Source: a virus. From it: a stretch of 30,369 nucleotides of DNA. Below the pieces are notes generated by a model. The model searched no databases, had not been told where the DNA came from, and saw only the letters and a list, made by a program, of their open reading frames with translations. The stretch lies in IMG/VR virus record IMGVR_UViG_3300037070_006048, positions 1 through 30,369 of that record; one strand, written 5' to 3'. Shown one piece after another: positions 12,822 through 29,762 of the stretch (its first letter is position 1; every line of letters starts with the position of its first letter). Both the position numbers and the translations under genes were made by a program.

Positions 12822-12983
12822 GGAATAGACCTCCCAAGTGGCAACAACACTTATTTGGCTCGTGGCCCGAGGTTGGAGTGAAGGAATGGCCTCGCATTGC
12901 GGTCCGAGCAAAACTCGGCCGGAGAGGCAAAGTCAAAGATTCCGCTATGGTCGGCGGACGGGATCAGACGTGATCGGCCAGGA
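12822..12983. other. Non-coding gap between scaffold gene and small ORF
   Basis: This 162-base gap is one of the few real gaps in the leftward operon. On the minus strand it holds the scaffold ribosome site GGGAGG and a small hairpin (CCGAG, TTTTG loop, CTCGG) with no T-run. A TTGACT at the right place for a -35 has no convincing -10 partner. An open frame covers it but has poor codon choice and no start signal. Confidence 0.4.
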
Positions 12984-13169
12984 TCAGGCCGGATCGGGAG
13001 AGTTCTCGTCTCGTTTAGGGTCCGGGAGGCTCGTCCAATCCTCGGTGTGGCGCTCCGCTCCGCTCGCTCCGCCAATCACGTAAAGGGGGACCTTCATCTC
13101 CCGAGCAGCTTCTTGCGCCCGTTTAATGAGCTCGCGGCCGTGCTCGAGCCCTCCGTGGGACTCGAGCAT
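12984..13169 (-). CDS. Small hypothetical protein, 61 residues
   Basis: The ORF starting with ATG at 13169 encodes a mixed-charge protein: MLESHGGLEHGRELIKRAQE, then REMKVPLYVIGGASGAERH, and a Pro/Asp-rich tail. Amphipathic helix followed by a beta strand and a Gly-rich turn make it look like a genuine protein. It starts 17 bases after the stop of the glycosidase-like gene, suggesting coupling; no Shine-Dalgarno is visible. The frame is open further upstream, but that part overlaps the glycosidase gene and has shadow-like composition. Function is unknown. Confidence 0.45.
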   Translation of the reverse strand: MLESHGGLEHGRELIKRAQEAAREMKVPLYVIGGASGAERHTEDWTSLPDPKRDENSPDPA

Positions 13170-21702: not shown

Positions 21703-22260
21703 TTACTGATCTTTCCAGGCGGGCACCCACTTAAAGGGCGGGGCCAGTAGGCTACTCGACGGGATCGGCGAGGCGTTCGGACATGGAAACGTGGTCTGCG
21801 ATCGGTAATGCCAGATCCCCGCGCTCACGTCGTAGAAGATGGTCCCGCAGGTCCAGGGATCGGTCACAAAGACCGTTGTCACCTTGCCCGTAAAGGTATC
21901 GATCCCCTGGTAGGTGACGCCGTTCTCTGCTCCGAGGGTCCCCTGGCCCTTGTTCCCACCACCACCGCCGCCGCTTCCGCCACCACCGCCCGGCGTGCAC
22001 TCGCCGATCTTAGGCGTTGCTTGATTCGTTAGGTTCTTATGCAGGATGAGCGGTCCGTAGACTATCACCCCATCCGGCCCGGTCGATTTCAACTGGTCGT
22101 AGACCGTGCCGTTTGAGTAAGTGCCCGATGTGATCGTTTTGGATCCGTCGGCGTTGTTGGTGAAGGTGTGCCACGAAGTGACACCCAGGTTAGCGGCCCA
22201 GGAGGCGGCCGTTGTTATTGCGAGCAGCATGAGAGCTGCGATTGCTGTTTTTTTTATCAT
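21703..22260 (-). CDS. Secreted protein of unknown function, coupled to the helicase gene
   Basis: A 185-residue protein with a clear signal peptide, MIKKTAIAALMLLAITTAAS followed by WA-AN (cleavage about residue 22-23). The mature part has a short beta-type region (TSWHTFTNNADGSKTITSGT), a glycine-rich linker (about 91-102), and a second beta region with two Cys (DPWTCGTIFYDVSAG ... FPCPNA). GAGGAA precedes the ATG, which overlaps the DnaB stop as ATGA, so it is co-translated with replication genes. An exported early protein is unusual; superinfection exclusion or envelope modification is conceivable but purely inferred. Confidence 0.7.
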   Translation of the reverse strand: MIKKTAIAALMLLAITTAASWAANLGVTSWHTFTNNADGSKTITSGTYSNGTVYDQLKSTGPDGVIVYGPLILHKNLTNQATPKIGECTPGGGGGSGGGGGGNKGQGTLGAENGVTYQGIDTFTGKVTTVFVTDPWTCGTIFYDVSAGIWHYRSQTTFPCPNASPIPSSSLLAPPFKWVPAWKDQ

Positions 22261-23714
22261 AATTCCTCGCCTTTCCCGCCCTGGCGCATCAGTGGGTTAT
22301 TGCTCCATTGCTTGGCCGTCACGTTTTTGAACCTGGTTGTGTGACCCTCGAACAAGAGACTGATTTCGCCGACCGGCCCGTTGCGTTGCTTGGCCAGGAT
22401 GAGCTCGGAGTAGAGATCGAGCTCGTCGTCCTTGAGCTTGAGAAATTTGGAAAGTTTTTCGCGGTCCTGGGTCGATTTCGTCCCGATGTTTTTGATCGGC
22501 CGCCAGATCAGCATAACGATATCGGCGTCGTTCTCGATCGAACCGCTCTCGCGCAGATCGGAGAGCTTGGGACGGCCCCAGGTGCGCTTTTCCACGTCCC
22601 GGTTGAGCTGTGCGCACGCGATCACCGCGATCCCGAGCTCCTTGGCCGTGGCCTTGAGCGCCGCGCTGATTTCGGCGATCTCGATTTGCTTGTTTTCCCG
22701 AGCCCGCCGGCTGGTTGACTGCATGAGCTGTAAATAATCGACCACGATGAGCCCGACTTTCTGGCGCATGACCAGGGCGCGAGCTTTGGCTTTGAAATCG
22801 AAGATCTTGAGGGCCGGAGTGTCGTCGATGTAGATCGCGGCCTTGCGTAACGGGTCTAGCTTTTCGCTGATCTCGGCGATCTGACCTTTTTCAAAGAAGC
22901 CGGTGCGCAGCAAGCTGAGATTGAGGTTGGCAAAGGCAAAGGTCGCGCGATCCGCGAGCTCCTGATAACTCATCTCGAGCGAGAAGATCGCGACCGGGAT
23001 GTTTTGGTCGACCGCGACGTGCTCCGCGATGTTCATTGCCATCGCCGTCTTGCCGTTGGACGGCCGGGCCGCGATGATGGCCAGGTTGTGGGGCTTGATC
23101 CCGCCTAACATTCGATCCAGATCGAAGAATCCAGTCGCGAGCCCGCTGATGACGGCCTCGCCCCGGTTCGCGAAGGCCACTTCCATCTTGCGGACCGTCT
23201 CATCGACGCCTTTTCTAATCGGCTGACTCTCCGGTTGGTCGATTCCGTCGAGCGCGATCTCGGTAAAAGCTGCTTGCGTCTCGTCCAGGAGCTCCTGGAC
23301 CTGGTCCTGAGCTTGAAAGGCCAGGCTCGCGGCTCGCTCCGCGGCCGCGATGATCCGGCGCAGGATCCATTTTTCCCTAACGATATCGATGTAGTAACCG
23401 ACATTCGCGGCCGAGGGGACAAAGGTGAACAGGTGCGCAATGTAAGCGGGGCCGCCGATCGCATCGAGGTCGCCCTGGTCTTTCACGAGCTGCGTGAAGG
23501 TGACCATGTCCAGGCCGAGCCCTTTCGCGCCCAGGAGGAGCGAGAAAATGATCCGGTGCGGCTCAGTGACAAAGGCGTCCAGGGTTGGGATCCGGGCCTG
23601 ACATTCTTCGATCGCTTCGGGCTTAATCAGCATCGAGCCCAGGAGAGCTTTCTCCGCTTCGATCGACTGCGGTGGCTCGCGCAATGGCGCGAGATATTCC
23701 TCGCGCTTGGTCAT
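22257..23714 (-). CDS. dnaB: Replicative DNA helicase, DnaB family
   Basis: A 485-residue hexameric helicase that unwinds DNA at the fork. The N-terminal domain has PPQSIEAEKALLGSMLIKPE (14-33), the DnaB hallmark, with ALDGIDQ linking to the RecA-like core. Walker A is AARPSNGKTAMAMN (215-228); FSLEMS (244-249) is helicase motif 1a, and GLIVVDYLQLM around 320 is Walker B. ACAQLNRDVEKR follows, and LRESGSIENDADIVM is motif 4. Length is full. It overlaps both neighbours by ATGA and lies after the initiator-like gene, as in many phages. No separate primase gene is evident. Confidence 0.93.
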   Translation of the reverse strand: MTKREEYLAPLREPPQSIEAEKALLGSMLIKPEAIEECQARIPTLDAFVTEPHRIIFSLLLGAKGLGLDMVTFTQLVKDQGDLDAIGGPAYIAHLFTFVPSAANVGYYIDIVREKWILRRIIAAAERAASLAFQAQDQVQELLDETQAAFTEIALDGIDQPESQPIRKGVDETVRKMEVAFANRGEAVISGLATGFFDLDRMLGGIKPHNLAIIAARPSNGKTAMAMNIAEHVAVDQNIPVAIFSLEMSYQELADRATFAFANLNLSLLRTGFFEKGQIAEISEKLDPLRKAAIYIDDTPALKIFDFKAKARALVMRQKVGLIVVDYLQLMQSTSRRARENKQIEIAEISAALKATAKELGIAVIACAQLNRDVEKRTWGRPKLSDLRESGSIENDADIVMLIWRPIKNIGTKSTQDREKLSKFLKLKDDELDLYSELILAKQRNGPVGEISLLFEGHTTRFKNVTAKQWSNNPLMRQGGKGEEL

Positions 23715-23911
23715 TCCTTGTTGAGCTCCGCGATCAGTAAATCGGCGACGATGACGGCATTTGAGGCAGCGTCAGGATTGCTAATGTCGGGCGATCCGAG
23801 GCCCGCGAGCGCCATACGCAACCGGCGAAGCGCGAGACGCTGCTGGCGTTTCGTTAGGCCACGGTTGGCCTGAGAGGCTCCCGCTGGCGCATCCGCTTCT
23901 GTTTTTTTCAT
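23711..23911 (-). CDS. Small basic protein containing the 33-bp repeat
   Basis: A 66-residue protein, MKKTEADAPAGASQANRGLT followed by KRQQRLALRRLRMALAG, a basic helix, and an acidic C-terminal helix ending LLIAELNKE. The ATG at 23911 has GGGAGA upstream; the longer frame to 24007 lacks this. The basic helix is encoded almost wholly by a 33-bp sequence that recurs in another frame in the initiator gene (24668-24700). It overlaps the helicase start by ATGA. Function unknown. Confidence 0.6.
   Translation of the reverse strand: MKKTEADAPAGASQANRGLTKRQQRLALRRLRMALAGLGSPDISNPDAASNAVIVADLLIAELNKE
23817..23849. repeat. 33-bp direct repeat, copy 1
   Basis: The 33 bases starting CGCAACCGGCGAAGCG are identical to 24668-24700, 851 bases away. 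This copy encodes RQQRLALRRLR (minus strand) in the 66-aa protein. Confidence 0.9.
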
Positions 23912-24156
23912 AATTGTTCTCCCAGGTGCATGAGGAGCTGGCTCATCTCCTCGCCGATCGATTCGTTTACTTCCGAGGCCACAAAGGCGATTCCGCACCA
24001 CGGGCAAAAGCTCGGATCCTCGTCAATCACGGCCTTGGGCACGTAGAAAAATCCTTTACACGTTAGGCACTTGCACGCCTGGACGAGCAATTTCGGGCCG
24101 GTCCCGGTTGCGCTCTGCCAGCAGATCGCCCTCTTTTCTTCGTTAGGCGTGGGCAT
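23908..24156 (-). CDS. Zinc-ribbon protein, 82 residues
   Basis: Contains two CxxC pairs, ACKCLTCKGFFYV (28-40) and SFCPWCGIAF (49-58), the layout of a rubredoxin-like zinc ribbon, followed by an acidic helical C-terminus (NESIGEEMSQLLMHLGEQL). The start overlaps the end of the initiator-like gene by 14 bases, with GGGG upstream. A nucleic-acid or replication-partner role is inferred from its place between initiator and helicase genes. Confidence 0.7.
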   Translation of the reverse strand: MPTPNEEKRAICWQSATGTGPKLLVQACKCLTCKGFFYVPKAVIDEDPSFCPWCGIAFVASEVNESIGEEMSQLLMHLGEQL

Positions 24157-25165
24157 GGACCCCGGGTCTTTCTTTTTTTTCCAGATCCTCGAGCAAGCCG
24201 GGAAGGCGCGATCGCAGCTCCGGCGAGAGCTCCCAAAACGACTCGGGGAGCTCGGCCTCGGGGTATTTCGATCGGTACGCTTCCCGCCACAGGTCGGGCT
24301 CCGGGCGCGGGGTGGCCGTCGTCCCGTCGTCCAGGTCGAGCTCCTTGCGCACGGTGCGAATTTTCTGGATCTCGGGCCGGAGATTTTCCAGGAGCGATTC
24401 CAGGGACCGGCGCAGCTTCGTCGCCTGGCGAAATTCGTCGTCCATCGGGAGCGCGTAAGCCCACTCCAGCAGGCCCATTTCCTCCTCGACGATCGGGAGG
24501 GCCTGGTCGAGCCAAAAGTCGACCTGCGGGTTGGTCCAGAAAGACTCCTTTTTTTTCTCCTGGAACGCGACCATCGAGATCCCGCCGAGCCGTTTTTTTA
24601 TTTCGGCGTGAGGCAAAGCTCCGCCCGAGGACTCGGATCCGGCAGGAGCCGGTCGGGAAAGCTCACTCGCAACCGGCGAAGCGCGAGACGCTGCTGGCGT
24701 CGCGCGCGGGTCGGATGGCGTAGGTCGTAAGTCGTAAGTCGTAAGGCGTGATAAGCCTGCATTTGTCTGCATCTGCCCGCAAAGGTCGGGCACTTGTCCG
24801 ACACTTGCAAACATTTGCTGACAGTTGTCCGCAAATTCTTTGTATTTGCTGAACTTTGCACGCGCACGTTCCCGCCAGCGAAGCACTTGCACAACTTCCT
24901 TCCCATCTTCGTCTTTATAGAAATTACATAGCCCGTTGTCAGACAATTGCCGACACATGTCCGCAATTGCCGACAGTTGTATGTCATCTGTCTGCGGATT
25001 CCCTAATGGAAAGGCGTAAGAACGGATGATTCCGAACGATCCTTCAAAACGGCCATAATCATCGACAAGCGTCACAAGGCGCACGTAGAGGCTTTGCGCC
25101 TCAAAACTGAGGGCGTTGAATCGCTTACTGGTGGTGATCCCAGGTTGAAGGTAGCGGAGTGGCAT
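24143..25165 (-). CDS. Replication initiator-like protein (phage O/DnaD-type organisation)
   Basis: A 340-residue protein. The N-terminal part RYLQPGITTSKRFNALSFEA (4-23) followed by QSLYVRLVTLVDDYGRF is the 'R.L......S....LS..A..LY..L....DD.GR.' pattern of phage replisome organisers with an N-terminal winged helix. Residues 138-185 are a Pro/Ser/Ala linker made largely of repetitive DNA. The C-terminal half (SFWTNPQVDFWLDQALPIVE; EFRQATKLRRSLESLL) is helical and could contact DnaB, encoded two genes later. Iteron-like DNA lies inside the gene (see the origin features), as in lambda O. No Shine-Dalgarno precedes the ATG. The role is inferred from N-terminus, repeats and neighbours. Confidence 0.65.
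   Translation of the reverse strand: MPLRYLQPGITTSKRFNALSFEAQSLYVRLVTLVDDYGRFEGSFGIIRSYAFPLGNPQTDDIQLSAIADMCRQLSDNGLCNFYKDEDGKEVVQVLRWRERARAKFSKYKEFADNCQQMFASVGQVPDLCGQMQTNAGLSRLTTYDLRPTPSDPRATPAASRASPVASELSRPAPAGSESSGGALPHAEIKKRLGGISMVAFQEKKKESFWTNPQVDFWLDQALPIVEEEMGLLEWAYALPMDDEFRQATKLRRSLESLLENLRPEIQKIRTVRKELDLDDGTTATPRPEPDLWREAYRSKYPEAELPESFWELSPELRSRLPGLLEDLEKKERPGVHAHA
24668..24700. repeat. 33-bp direct repeat, copy 2
   Basis: Identical to 23817-23849. Here the minus strand encodes ATPAASRASPVA in the linker of the initiator-like protein, one frame away from the reading used in copy 1. Confidence 0.9.
24717..24751. repeat. Tandem heptamers around GTCGTAA
   Basis: Three exact tandem copies of GTCGTAA (24724-24744) are flanked by the related heptamers GGCGTAG and GGCGTGA. 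They encode the LTTYDLRPTP part of the initiator linker and lie next to both the 33-bp repeat and the iteron-like array. Confidence 0.8.
24759..24860. repeat. Iteron-like array A, candidate replication origin
   Basis: Related decamers recur at almost exactly 10-bp steps: GCATTTGTCT at 24759, GCATCTGCCC at 24769, GCACTTGTCC at 24790, GACACTTGCA at 24800, AACATTTGCT at 24810, GACAGTTGTC at 24820, then weaker copies to 24860. A 10-bp period is out of step with codons, pointing to DNA-level selection such as initiator binding on one helix face. It lies inside the initiator-like gene. Confidence 0.6.
24897..24930. other. AT-rich segment between the two iteron-like arrays
   Basis: The stretch CTTTATAGAAATTACATA (near 24912-24930) is markedly AT-rich for this window and lies between arrays A and B. 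In iteron origins such a segment is the DNA-unwinding element; that role is inferred. Confidence 0.4.
24931..25000. repeat. Iteron-like array B, candidate replication origin
   Basis: A second set of decamers in 10-bp register: AGACAATTGC at 24941, CGACACATGT at 24951, CCGCAATTGC at 24961, CGACAGTTGT at 24971, ATGTCATCTG at 24981. The consensus (about CGACAATTGT) matches array A. It encodes residues about 56-79 of the initiator-like protein. Confidence 0.6.
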
Positions 25166-28090: not shown

Positions 28091-28560
28091 ACGAACCAAA
28101 AACAATCGGTAAAATACTTGCTGGAGAGCGGACTCAGTTCAATGAAACGGTTGGCGACTTCCGGGAGCGGATCGCCGGGATAATGAAACCGGCGCATGTC
28201 CCCTACCAACCAAAGACCGGGCAGCAATGCACCTGCCGGATCGGGGCGGCCCGGGACAATTGCCGACTGTGCGAAGGAACCGGCCAGGTGATCGACTTCG
28301 CCAAGGTCCGGGCCAAGCAGCCACACGTCACGATCGGGGGCGGACGGCCGATCCGGCCGCACCTGGGGCGCGGTGAGCGGCCGACGATCTGGAAGCTCTA
28401 CGAGTGCGGCGGTGGTTGCCGCTGGAGCTCGACCCTCGACGATTGCGACGGGAAGATCTGCGACTATTCCGGGTGCGGGTGCGGGACCAAAGTTTATATG
28501 ATCGACGTGACCACGTCCCGGGACGTGGCGGCCAATTGGTTCCGGGGGGTGCAATCGTGA
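28087..28560 (+). CDS. Cysteine-rich zinc-binding protein upstream of the integrase
   Basis: A 157-residue protein from ATG 28087. CTCRIGAARDNCRLCEGTGQ (48-67) has the CxC...CxxCxGxG spacing of DnaJ-type zinc knuckles, and a second cluster ECGGGCRWSSTLDDC, then CDYSGCGCGTKV, follows at about 106-137. It probably binds two metal ions. The N-terminal part is helical and charged. Its TGA overlaps the integrase GTG, so the two are co-expressed; an accessory role in recombination or regulation is inferred from that alone. No Shine-Dalgarno is present. Confidence 0.65.
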   Translation: MNEPKTIGKILAGERTQFNETVGDFRERIAGIMKPAHVPYQPKTGQQCTCRIGAARDNCRLCEGTGQVIDFAKVRAKQPHVTIGGGRPIRPHLGRGERPTIWKLYECGGGCRWSSTLDDCDGKICDYSGCGCGTKVYMIDVTTSRDVAANWFRGVQS

Positions 28561-29762
28561 GCCGTCTCGCTTTCAACGCCCAGGGCCGCAAGCGGACCCT
28601 CATCCGCATGACGCCCCAGGGACCGTTTCACATCCGCTTTATGGCCCAGGGCCAACGGGTCCTGCGCTCCCTGGGGACGACGATCCCGGCCGTCGCGATC
28701 CAAAAGGCGAAAACCCTGATCGATGCAGCCTACGCGGGCGACCAGGTCGCGATGCGCAGCTCTAAGGTCCGATCGGACTACCCGCTCCTTCGCGAGGTTG
28801 CCGAGCGTTACCGGGAGCGGTTCGGGACCGACCGACGCCGACGGCGCACGGCCATGCACAACATTGGGAGCCTGGCCAAGATCGTCCGCCTGGGTGCGGG
28901 CCTGAGCCTCGAGCAAGCTCGGATCTCGATCCTGGACGGTGCCCTGGTGCGCGACTACGAGGCGGCCGAGGAGCGCCGGATTGACCGGGACGGGAACGGT
29001 CACATGATCCAGGCCAGTGAGCTCAGGATCCGCACGACGATCGCGAGCACGCTACGGATGGCTCGGAGCATGTTCAAAAAGTCGAGCCTCAATTGGTTCG
29101 ACGATCTCGGGATCCCGGATCTTAAGCAGTTCCGCGACCAGGGGACCACGTCCCCCGATCGGCCGAAACCGCAACCCCTGGATCCCGGGGTGATCGAAGC
29201 AATAAACGCGGCCGCGCCCAGGTTAAAGATCGACGACCCGCCCGTCTACGCGGCTCACCTGTTGTTTAAGTTCTGCGGACTGCGCAACGGTGAGGCCCGC
29301 TCGGCTCGTTGGTCCTGGGTGACTAGGACGGCCGACGGCGGGGGCAAGCTCGGGATCATCTATCGGCCCAACGAAGGCTACAAGCCCAAGGCGAAAACGG
29401 AAGGCCAGGTCCCGATCGCGGCGGCCGTCCTGGCCGAGCTCGAGCAGCTCGCCGACGGTAACGGGTTCCTGGTGCCCGGGGCGAGCGCCTACGCTCGGCT
29501 CCAGGCCGTGGATATCCGGCACTCAAAATGGGTCGGCCAATGGATCCACGACCGCAGCAAGACCAGTTACGAGCTCCGCCGCTACGCGGGATCCCTGGTC
29601 TACCAAAAGACCGGGAGAATCGAGCACGCCCAGGCGTTCTTGCGTCACGGCAATGTCCAGACGACGATGTTGTGGTACTGGTATTTGCTGAGTGAAGTGG
29701 CGGCCCTCGAGCCTGCCGATTTCGCTCCGGCGGTCCCGACGCAGTTGGCCATAGTGGCCTAG
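28557..29762 (+). CDS. int: Tyrosine-type site-specific integrase
   Basis: A 401-residue recombinase starting at GTG 28557, which overlaps the upstream stop. The N-terminal third (GPFHIRFMAQGQRVLRSLGT; basic RRRRR at 93-97) fits an arm/core-binding domain. The catalytic domain has Arg243 in KFCGLRNGEARSARW, a Lys near 278-280 (KPKAKTEGQVPI), Arg341 in YELRRYAGSLVY, His364 in FLRHGNVQTT, and the nucleophile among Tyr374/Tyr376 in TTMLWYWYL. The usual His of the H-x-x-R box appears to be Tyr338, a tolerated variant. It should insert the phage genome at an attachment site. No attP core could be identified. Confidence 0.85.
   Translation: MSRLAFNAQGRKRTLIRMTPQGPFHIRFMAQGQRVLRSLGTTIPAVAIQKAKTLIDAAYAGDQVAMRSSKVRSDYPLLREVAERYRERFGTDRRRRRTAMHNIGSLAKIVRLGAGLSLEQARISILDGALVRDYEAAEERRIDRDGNGHMIQASELRIRTTIASTLRMARSMFKKSSLNWFDDLGIPDLKQFRDQGTTSPDRPKPQPLDPGVIEAINAAAPRLKIDDPPVYAAHLLFKFCGLRNGEARSARWSWVTRTADGGGKLGIIYRPNEGYKPKAKTEGQVPIAAAVLAELEQLADGNGFLVPGASAYARLQAVDIRHSKWVGQWIHDRSKTSYELRRYAGSLVYQKTGRIEHAQAFLRHGNVQTTMLWYWYLLSEVAALEPADFAPAVPTQLAIVA

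Follow-up and report, generated by a model that had tools for sequence, protein, structure and literature searches.

Does a viral gene resembling those of replication initiators also hold, within its own coding sequence, the origin of replication? This question is raised by the IMG/VR virus record IMGVR_UViG_3300037070_006048, analyzed here as one stretch of 30,369 bp (the window), in which an original prediction had pointed to 10-bp-phased repeats inside an initiator-like gene. We examined the gene, its product, the repeats and their counterparts in related phages.

The initiator gene, its product and its neighbors

Residues 2–121 of the encoded protein match two PHROG profiles annotated as 'replication initiation protein' (phrog_1408, E = 8e-8; phrog_2149, E = 5e-5), and the Pfam scan returned no match to this protein. 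A DnaB-type replicative helicase, which the original prediction had placed two genes downstream, is indeed encoded on the same strand and is separated from the initiator gene by two small ORFs (Table 1). Among the ~20 window ORFs scanned, PHROG matches were few beyond the endolysin, DnaB, integrase, initiator and weak esterase hits; judged by these sequences, the phage is highly divergent. Cumulative GC skew was uninformative: across the window it does not turn clearly at the initiator region, although the record may be a fragment.

Table 1. Positions of the candidate origin elements and of the genes around them in the window.
Feature	Position	Strand	Description
DnaB-type replicative helicase	22257-23714	minus, same as initiator	PF03796 (E=1e-87), PF00772; phrog_19
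Initiator gene	24143-25165	minus	340 aa; whole candidate origin inside
Probable stem-loop	24681-24707	minus	GCGCG.GACGC-CAGCA-GCGTC.CGCGC; 10 bp, one mismatch; 3' of the tract
Tandem tract	24719-24749	minus	7-bp unit TTACGAC, about 4 copies (TRF)
Array 2 (core, family-wide)	24760-24827	minus	CANNTG at 24760, 24770, 24791, 24802, 24812, 24822
N-terminal DNA-binding domain, aa 1-125	24791-25165	minus	predicted winged helix, AlphaFold2 pLDDT 87.7
Lone CANNTG site	24884		between arrays 1 and 2
AT-rich low-stability segment	24897-24930	none	32% GC
Array 1	24944-24990	minus	CANNTG at 24944, 24954, 24964, 24974, 24985
Integrase	28404-29762	opposite to initiator and DnaB	PHROG/Pfam scans

The structure predicted for the N-terminal domain resembles, among others, the N-domains of the plasmid initiators 4pql, 4pt7 and 5kbj (Z 7–8), which we take to be of the RepA_N type. 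The match to 4pql (Z 7.8 over 88 residues, rmsd 3.3) is tied with those to the winged helices of Fur, MecI and ORC, and the modeled fold supports DNA binding without pointing to a particular family. RepA_N plasmid initiators have their origin inside the rep gene. Staphylococcal RepA and its kind may recall the window protein through the predicted winged-helix N-domain, for which they are among the best fold matches; however, they show no sequence match to it, and similarity at this Z level is common to many winged helices. A search by sequence found no relatives of solved structure.

Phased sites, tandem tract and probable stem-loop

The initiator gene contains 12 CANNTG sites, mostly in two runs with 10/11-bp steps; the run designated array 2 lies where the DNA-binding domain ends, about 330 nt into the gene. 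Counting each site that has a neighbor 10 or 11 bp on, the gene holds 8 pairs. At least 8 pairs occurred in none of 20,000 synonymous shuffles, which kept the protein and the codon set (mean 1.2, maximum 7), and codon-order shuffles of the gene gave a mean of 0.01 pairs. No such pair is found outside the initiator gene region in the whole 30-kb window. Autocorrelation of 24759–25000, performed without reference to any motif, peaks at lags 10/11, 20, 31 and 41, and the repeat period is 10.0–10.4 bp, that is, one helical turn with 10s and 11s mixed. The phased repeats put forward by the original prediction are therefore real by both autocorrelation and protein-preserving shuffles, the codon-preserving controls being those against which it had proposed to be judged. 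Its helical phasing holds, whereas the strict 10-bp step gives way to the mixed one; likewise, its decamer CGACAATTGT is one version of the repeat, the family-wide unit being CA(A/G)ATG plus 4 bp. Elsewhere in the window, the second strongest lag-10 stretch (12957–12995; GACGGGATCA-like units with period 10) lies between two minus-strand genes and may belong to an operator or terminator that has nothing to do with the arrays.

Relatives of the window protein were collected in steps. A first tblastn search found L003, 49% identical to it, and L004, 54% identical over its 90 residues. Both carry the upstream array at the same position as the window; L003 also has array 2, and the L004 contig ends ahead of the array-2 position. 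The more distant L005, L006, L009 and L010 have array 2 or a related array. Profile scans added about 150 further loci, giving 115 non-redundant genes, of which 113 were long enough to test. In these 113 genes CANNTG pairs number 197 at spacing 10 (35 ± 5 in synonymous shuffles), 28 at spacing 11 (6 in shuffles) and 125 at spacing 20 (24 in shuffles), with one pair each at spacings 9 and 12 and two pairs at spacing 10 in the remainder of the genes outside the array region. The motif-free autocorrelation excess has a z of 18 at lag 10 and of 20 at lag 20; since the relatives were gathered via a conserved motif, VDDYGRF, and are phylogenetically dependent, these pooled statistics are descriptive and the z-values are not probabilities.

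The original prediction would have been refuted by relatives that keep the protein and lose the repeats. Instead, phased CANNTG pairs are present in 87 of the 113 genes, and a 10/11-bp array detected without any motif is individually significant in 101 (p < 0.05). The unit and its 10–11-bp spacing are kept among proteins 26–50% identical to that of the window, while the phased sites fall in all three codon frames (104/126/96). Because the array is kept through changes of reading frame, the protein cannot be its cause, and the array is maintained as DNA. Repetition of codons, a source that the original prediction had already discounted, or of protein sequence is ruled out by the synonymous shuffles and the frame changes together. 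Some members have another unit in place of CANNTG at the same step, for example L164 and L114 with GCGGCAAGTT-like units; co-evolution of the initiator with its sites would lead to such changes.

Neither array nor tandem tract was found in L115, L128 and L020 among the 113 genes tested. The initiator-like genes of L115 and L128 also differ in their downstream protein sequence, and their products are possibly regulators rather than initiators. In the L020 gene, the origin linker (about nt 320–480) is apparently swapped for an inserted domain that by eye resembles a GIY-YIG type nuclease (YFIQAV...KIGFS...).

Directly 3' of array 2 in gene sense lies a tandem tract, an element absent from the original prediction. 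Its unit is not a codon repeat because it is 7 bp long. Relatives likewise carry a tract of 5–8-bp units 3' of the array, with a median gap of 17 nt. In 97 of the 113 genes the tract surpasses the 99th percentile of shuffled codon orders, whereas the same test found repeats of this level in the N-terminal gene regions of 0/113. Across 88 genes the junction between array and tract has the consensus CAAATGT.CCCgTAaTCCAAtcCAAtCC. The same strings are read in different frames: CCGTAATCCAATCC is translated as RNPIQS in 29 genes and as VIQSN in 11; repeats of CGAATC encode SESE in 9 genes and NPNP in 8. This, too, indicates that it is the DNA and not the protein that is kept. In the single-strand folding comparison the tract itself is unstructured.

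Beyond the tract, the window has a candidate stem-loop that the original prediction had likewise not described. On its own, the 100-nt stretch around it is not exceptional (z -1.45). Among relatives, synonymous shuffles fold less strongly than the real sequence 50–100 nt past the array (difference -1.9 kcal/mol, t -6.4). The signal is modest, as the background itself moves to t -4.6 far downstream; a structure excess is also seen family-wide at the array itself. When perfect stems were sought from the end of the detected tract, the excess was weak (12% vs 4–6%); with the array end as anchor instead, it was clear. The stem-loop is probably a third conserved element, and the least secure of the three.

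An exact 33-nt duplication (ACGCCAGCAGCGTCTCGCGCTTCGCCGGTTGCG, minus strand) is present at 24668–24700 and 23817–23849. It spans much of the candidate origin hairpin; the downstream copy lies inside a small gene and is apparently read there in another frame. No copy was found in the fetched relatives.

Two elements do not extend across the family. Array 1, considered as a core element, was rejected, as hardly any gene other than those of the window and its closest relatives (L003/L011 and L004) has it. The AT-rich segment between the two arrays is real in the window, where 0.04% of 34-bp segments are less stable, and it may be an unwinding site in this phage. As a family-wide unwinding element, however, it was dismissed: neither array 1 nor the low stability is conserved, so that this part of the original prediction stands for the window only. 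The conserved core consists of array 2, then the short tandem tract and then, probably, the stem-loop.

The host genomes in which family members occur include those of Lachnospiraceae, Omnitrophota, Bacteroidales, Balneolia, Limisphaerales and Alicyclobacillus; genomes of Magnetococcales and Nitrospira gave weaker and partial matches. These genomes are mostly metagenome-assembled, and binning errors are possible. A tblastn search with the window DnaB matched 13 of the 112 flanks fetched, which were short; the low count is uninformative, as many of these phages may use other helicases.

Known origins and DUF6291 genes

Origins inside initiator genes are already known from lambda, Tuc2009 and TP901-1. 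The comparison with lambda drawn in the original prediction is apt in position and layout, as the lambda sites lie in gene O past the region for the N-terminal DNA-binding domain and are followed by a strand-biased simple tract. However, lambda has four 18-bp iterons 20–24 bp apart, unlike the CANNTG units of the window at 10/11 bp, and its tract is AT-rich, whereas that of the window family is often GC-rich. Lambda O matches PF04492 (Phage_rep_O), to which the window protein has no match in the same library. PHROG 5810 does link lambda O to the family: lambda O matches this profile at E 1e-13, and L009, L070 and SOVA965, all members of the family, match it at E 1e-22 to 1e-36; the window protein itself has no match to it.

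The initiators of TP901-1 and Tuc2009 are reported to bind direct repeats located within the genes that encode them, and these repeats act as the ori (PMC8965321). The rep gene of Tuc2009, annotated as 'contains origin of replication', carries CAACCAAGTGT-CAACCATTCCG-CAACCAAATGA-CAACCAAATGT at 11-bp steps, and three of the four units have CAA(G/A)TG; the tract that comes next reads AGGATAGGATAGGAGAGGTTAGGTTAGG (AGGATAGGATAGGAGAGGTTAGGTTAGGTAAGG). In an order like that of the window, rep2009 places CAANTG units one turn apart ahead of a short tandem tract. Unlike in the window, its units are strictly 11 bp apart and its C-terminus is a PF06926 domain (Rep_Org_C), not found in the window protein. 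The link of Tuc2009 to the window family through the N-terminal profile is marginal in sequence (E 0.006), and therefore this anchor backs the layout rather than homology. TP901-1 orf13 differs from the window in having longer, different repeats.

The array-then-tract layout of Tuc2009 and the window is also seen in Ruminococcus gnavus phage phiRgIBDN1. By eye, short tandem tracts occupy the same place in named Stenotrophomonas, Vibrio, Mycobacterium and Gordonia phages, several of them after differently worded repeats. The initiator genes of Mycobacterium phage Panchino (L255) and Gordonia phage Matteo (L261) contain an 8-bp tandem, GGAACAGG, directly after inverted and direct repeats of other wording (GCGAGACCCTCGCGAG; CGGAAGTTCCG), the same layout being written with other words in these actinobacterial phages.

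A further parallel is offered by bacterial DnaA-trios, short direct repeats that lie beside DnaA boxes, always with the same polarity, and that DnaA binds as a single strand (PMC10797057). An oriC with DnaA boxes and trios resembles the window in placing double-strand sites ahead of a short direct repeat. Unlike the 3-nt trios, the units of the window family measure 5–8 nt and lie inside a gene, and no AAA+ initiator is recognized.

Viral contigs were also scanned for runs of four CANATG units in phase, without any use of protein information; this returned 61 stretches, and 19 of the 56 ORF-associated matches fell inside the window's initiator family. Others lie in DUF6291 genes: PF19808 was confirmed in L198, L203, L204, L206, L222, L231 and L235, and several further DUF6291 loci are near-copies by sequence. 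Here too short tandem tracts (TGATAA, TGTAAG, TACTGA, CTCCAA) come after the arrays; the rest of the matches proved to be short ORFs, or repeats lacking the array-tract context. The C-termini of L203, L206 and L235 match helicase-loader or initiator families. Among DUF6291 genes picked from bacterial genomes by Pfam only (L279–L292), 5 of 12 have a significant 10/11-bp array, and many also have tandem tracts. The modeled DUF6291 N-domain (pLDDT 92) is all helical with a long third helix; it has no PDB match (best E 2.1) and no sign of a shared winged helix. On the basis of these sequence features, the DUF6291 genes L203, L204, L206, L208, L222, L231 and L235 probably encode phage replication initiators. 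A full-text search, with most subscription journals outside its reach, found no literature mentioning DUF6291.

A probable in-gene origin and what it would mean

Judged from sequence, the region is very probably a lambda-like replication origin situated inside the gene of its own initiator; the roles of tract and hairpin are proposed with lower confidence. We hypothesize that the winged-helix N-domain binds CANNTG units side by side along one helix face, at 10–10.4 bp per unit, and that the bound initiators build a filament or wrap. This would open the adjacent tandem tract, one strand of which may be held single-stranded through direct recognition of its 5–8-nt units. The stem-loop beyond could mark or protect a site of helicase loading or priming, where the DnaB encoded nearby, or that of the host, would then be loaded.

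Repressors that bind cooperatively typically do so at short palindromes in phase, and a predicted winged helix is shared with many regulators, so that the array could be an operator through which the protein represses its own early operon from within the gene, no origin being present here. This is improbable: the core array lies some 330 nt inside the gene and not at a promoter, an operator would leave the conserved tract and the probable stem-loop unexplained, PHROG classes members of the family as replication initiators, with a DnaT C-terminus in one of them (L210), and the in-gene repeats of Tuc2009 are reported to be an ori (PMC8965321). Less probable still is neutral low-complexity DNA, an interdomain linker free to gather slippage repeats without any DNA function. 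The tract consists of simple-sequence DNA, lying in what is probably a linker, and slippage can yield tandem units; however, it does not produce diverged units in strict phase, nor would it account for a unit and spacing conserved at 26–50% protein identity in all three codon frames, for identical tract strings retained in different frames or for the constant order of array, tract and hairpin. Some partition sites consist of 10–11-bp phased repeats, but a parS/parC-like segregation centromere embedded in the gene is hardly credible in a window that carries an integrase and shows no partition gene among the proteins scanned; moreover, diverse phages have the array in initiator genes.

Returning to the in-gene origin, we also put forward, tentatively and as a claim somewhat less likely to hold than to fail, that the window represents a widespread, undescribed class of three-part phage origins, composed of a phased array, a 5–8-nt tandem recognized as single-stranded DNA and a loading or priming hairpin. 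Such a class would be served by several initiator families with different N-domains, DUF6291 included, and its tandem would be functionally like the DnaA-trios, but with no AAA+ initiator.

A full-text literature search, most subscription journals being outside its reach, found no prior description of the array-tract-hairpin layout. As far as such searches allow, the one-turn-phased CANNTG type, its cross-family tract companion, the probable stem-loop and the DUF6291 prediction are new.

The in-gene phage origins known so far come from a small set of model phages, while the layout of one-turn-phased sites, tract and probable stem-loop recurs widely among phages and prophages from several bacterial phyla. 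Being recognizable from sequence alone, it would allow origins to be located in uncultured phages. It also offers a DNA-level reason for the odd SESESE, TVTVTV and SPSPSP linkers of these initiators, and DUF6291 would gain a predicted function in phage replication initiation. The layout finally raises the question of whether phage initiators that lack an AAA+ domain open DNA as DnaA does, by holding a short repeated motif in single-stranded form.
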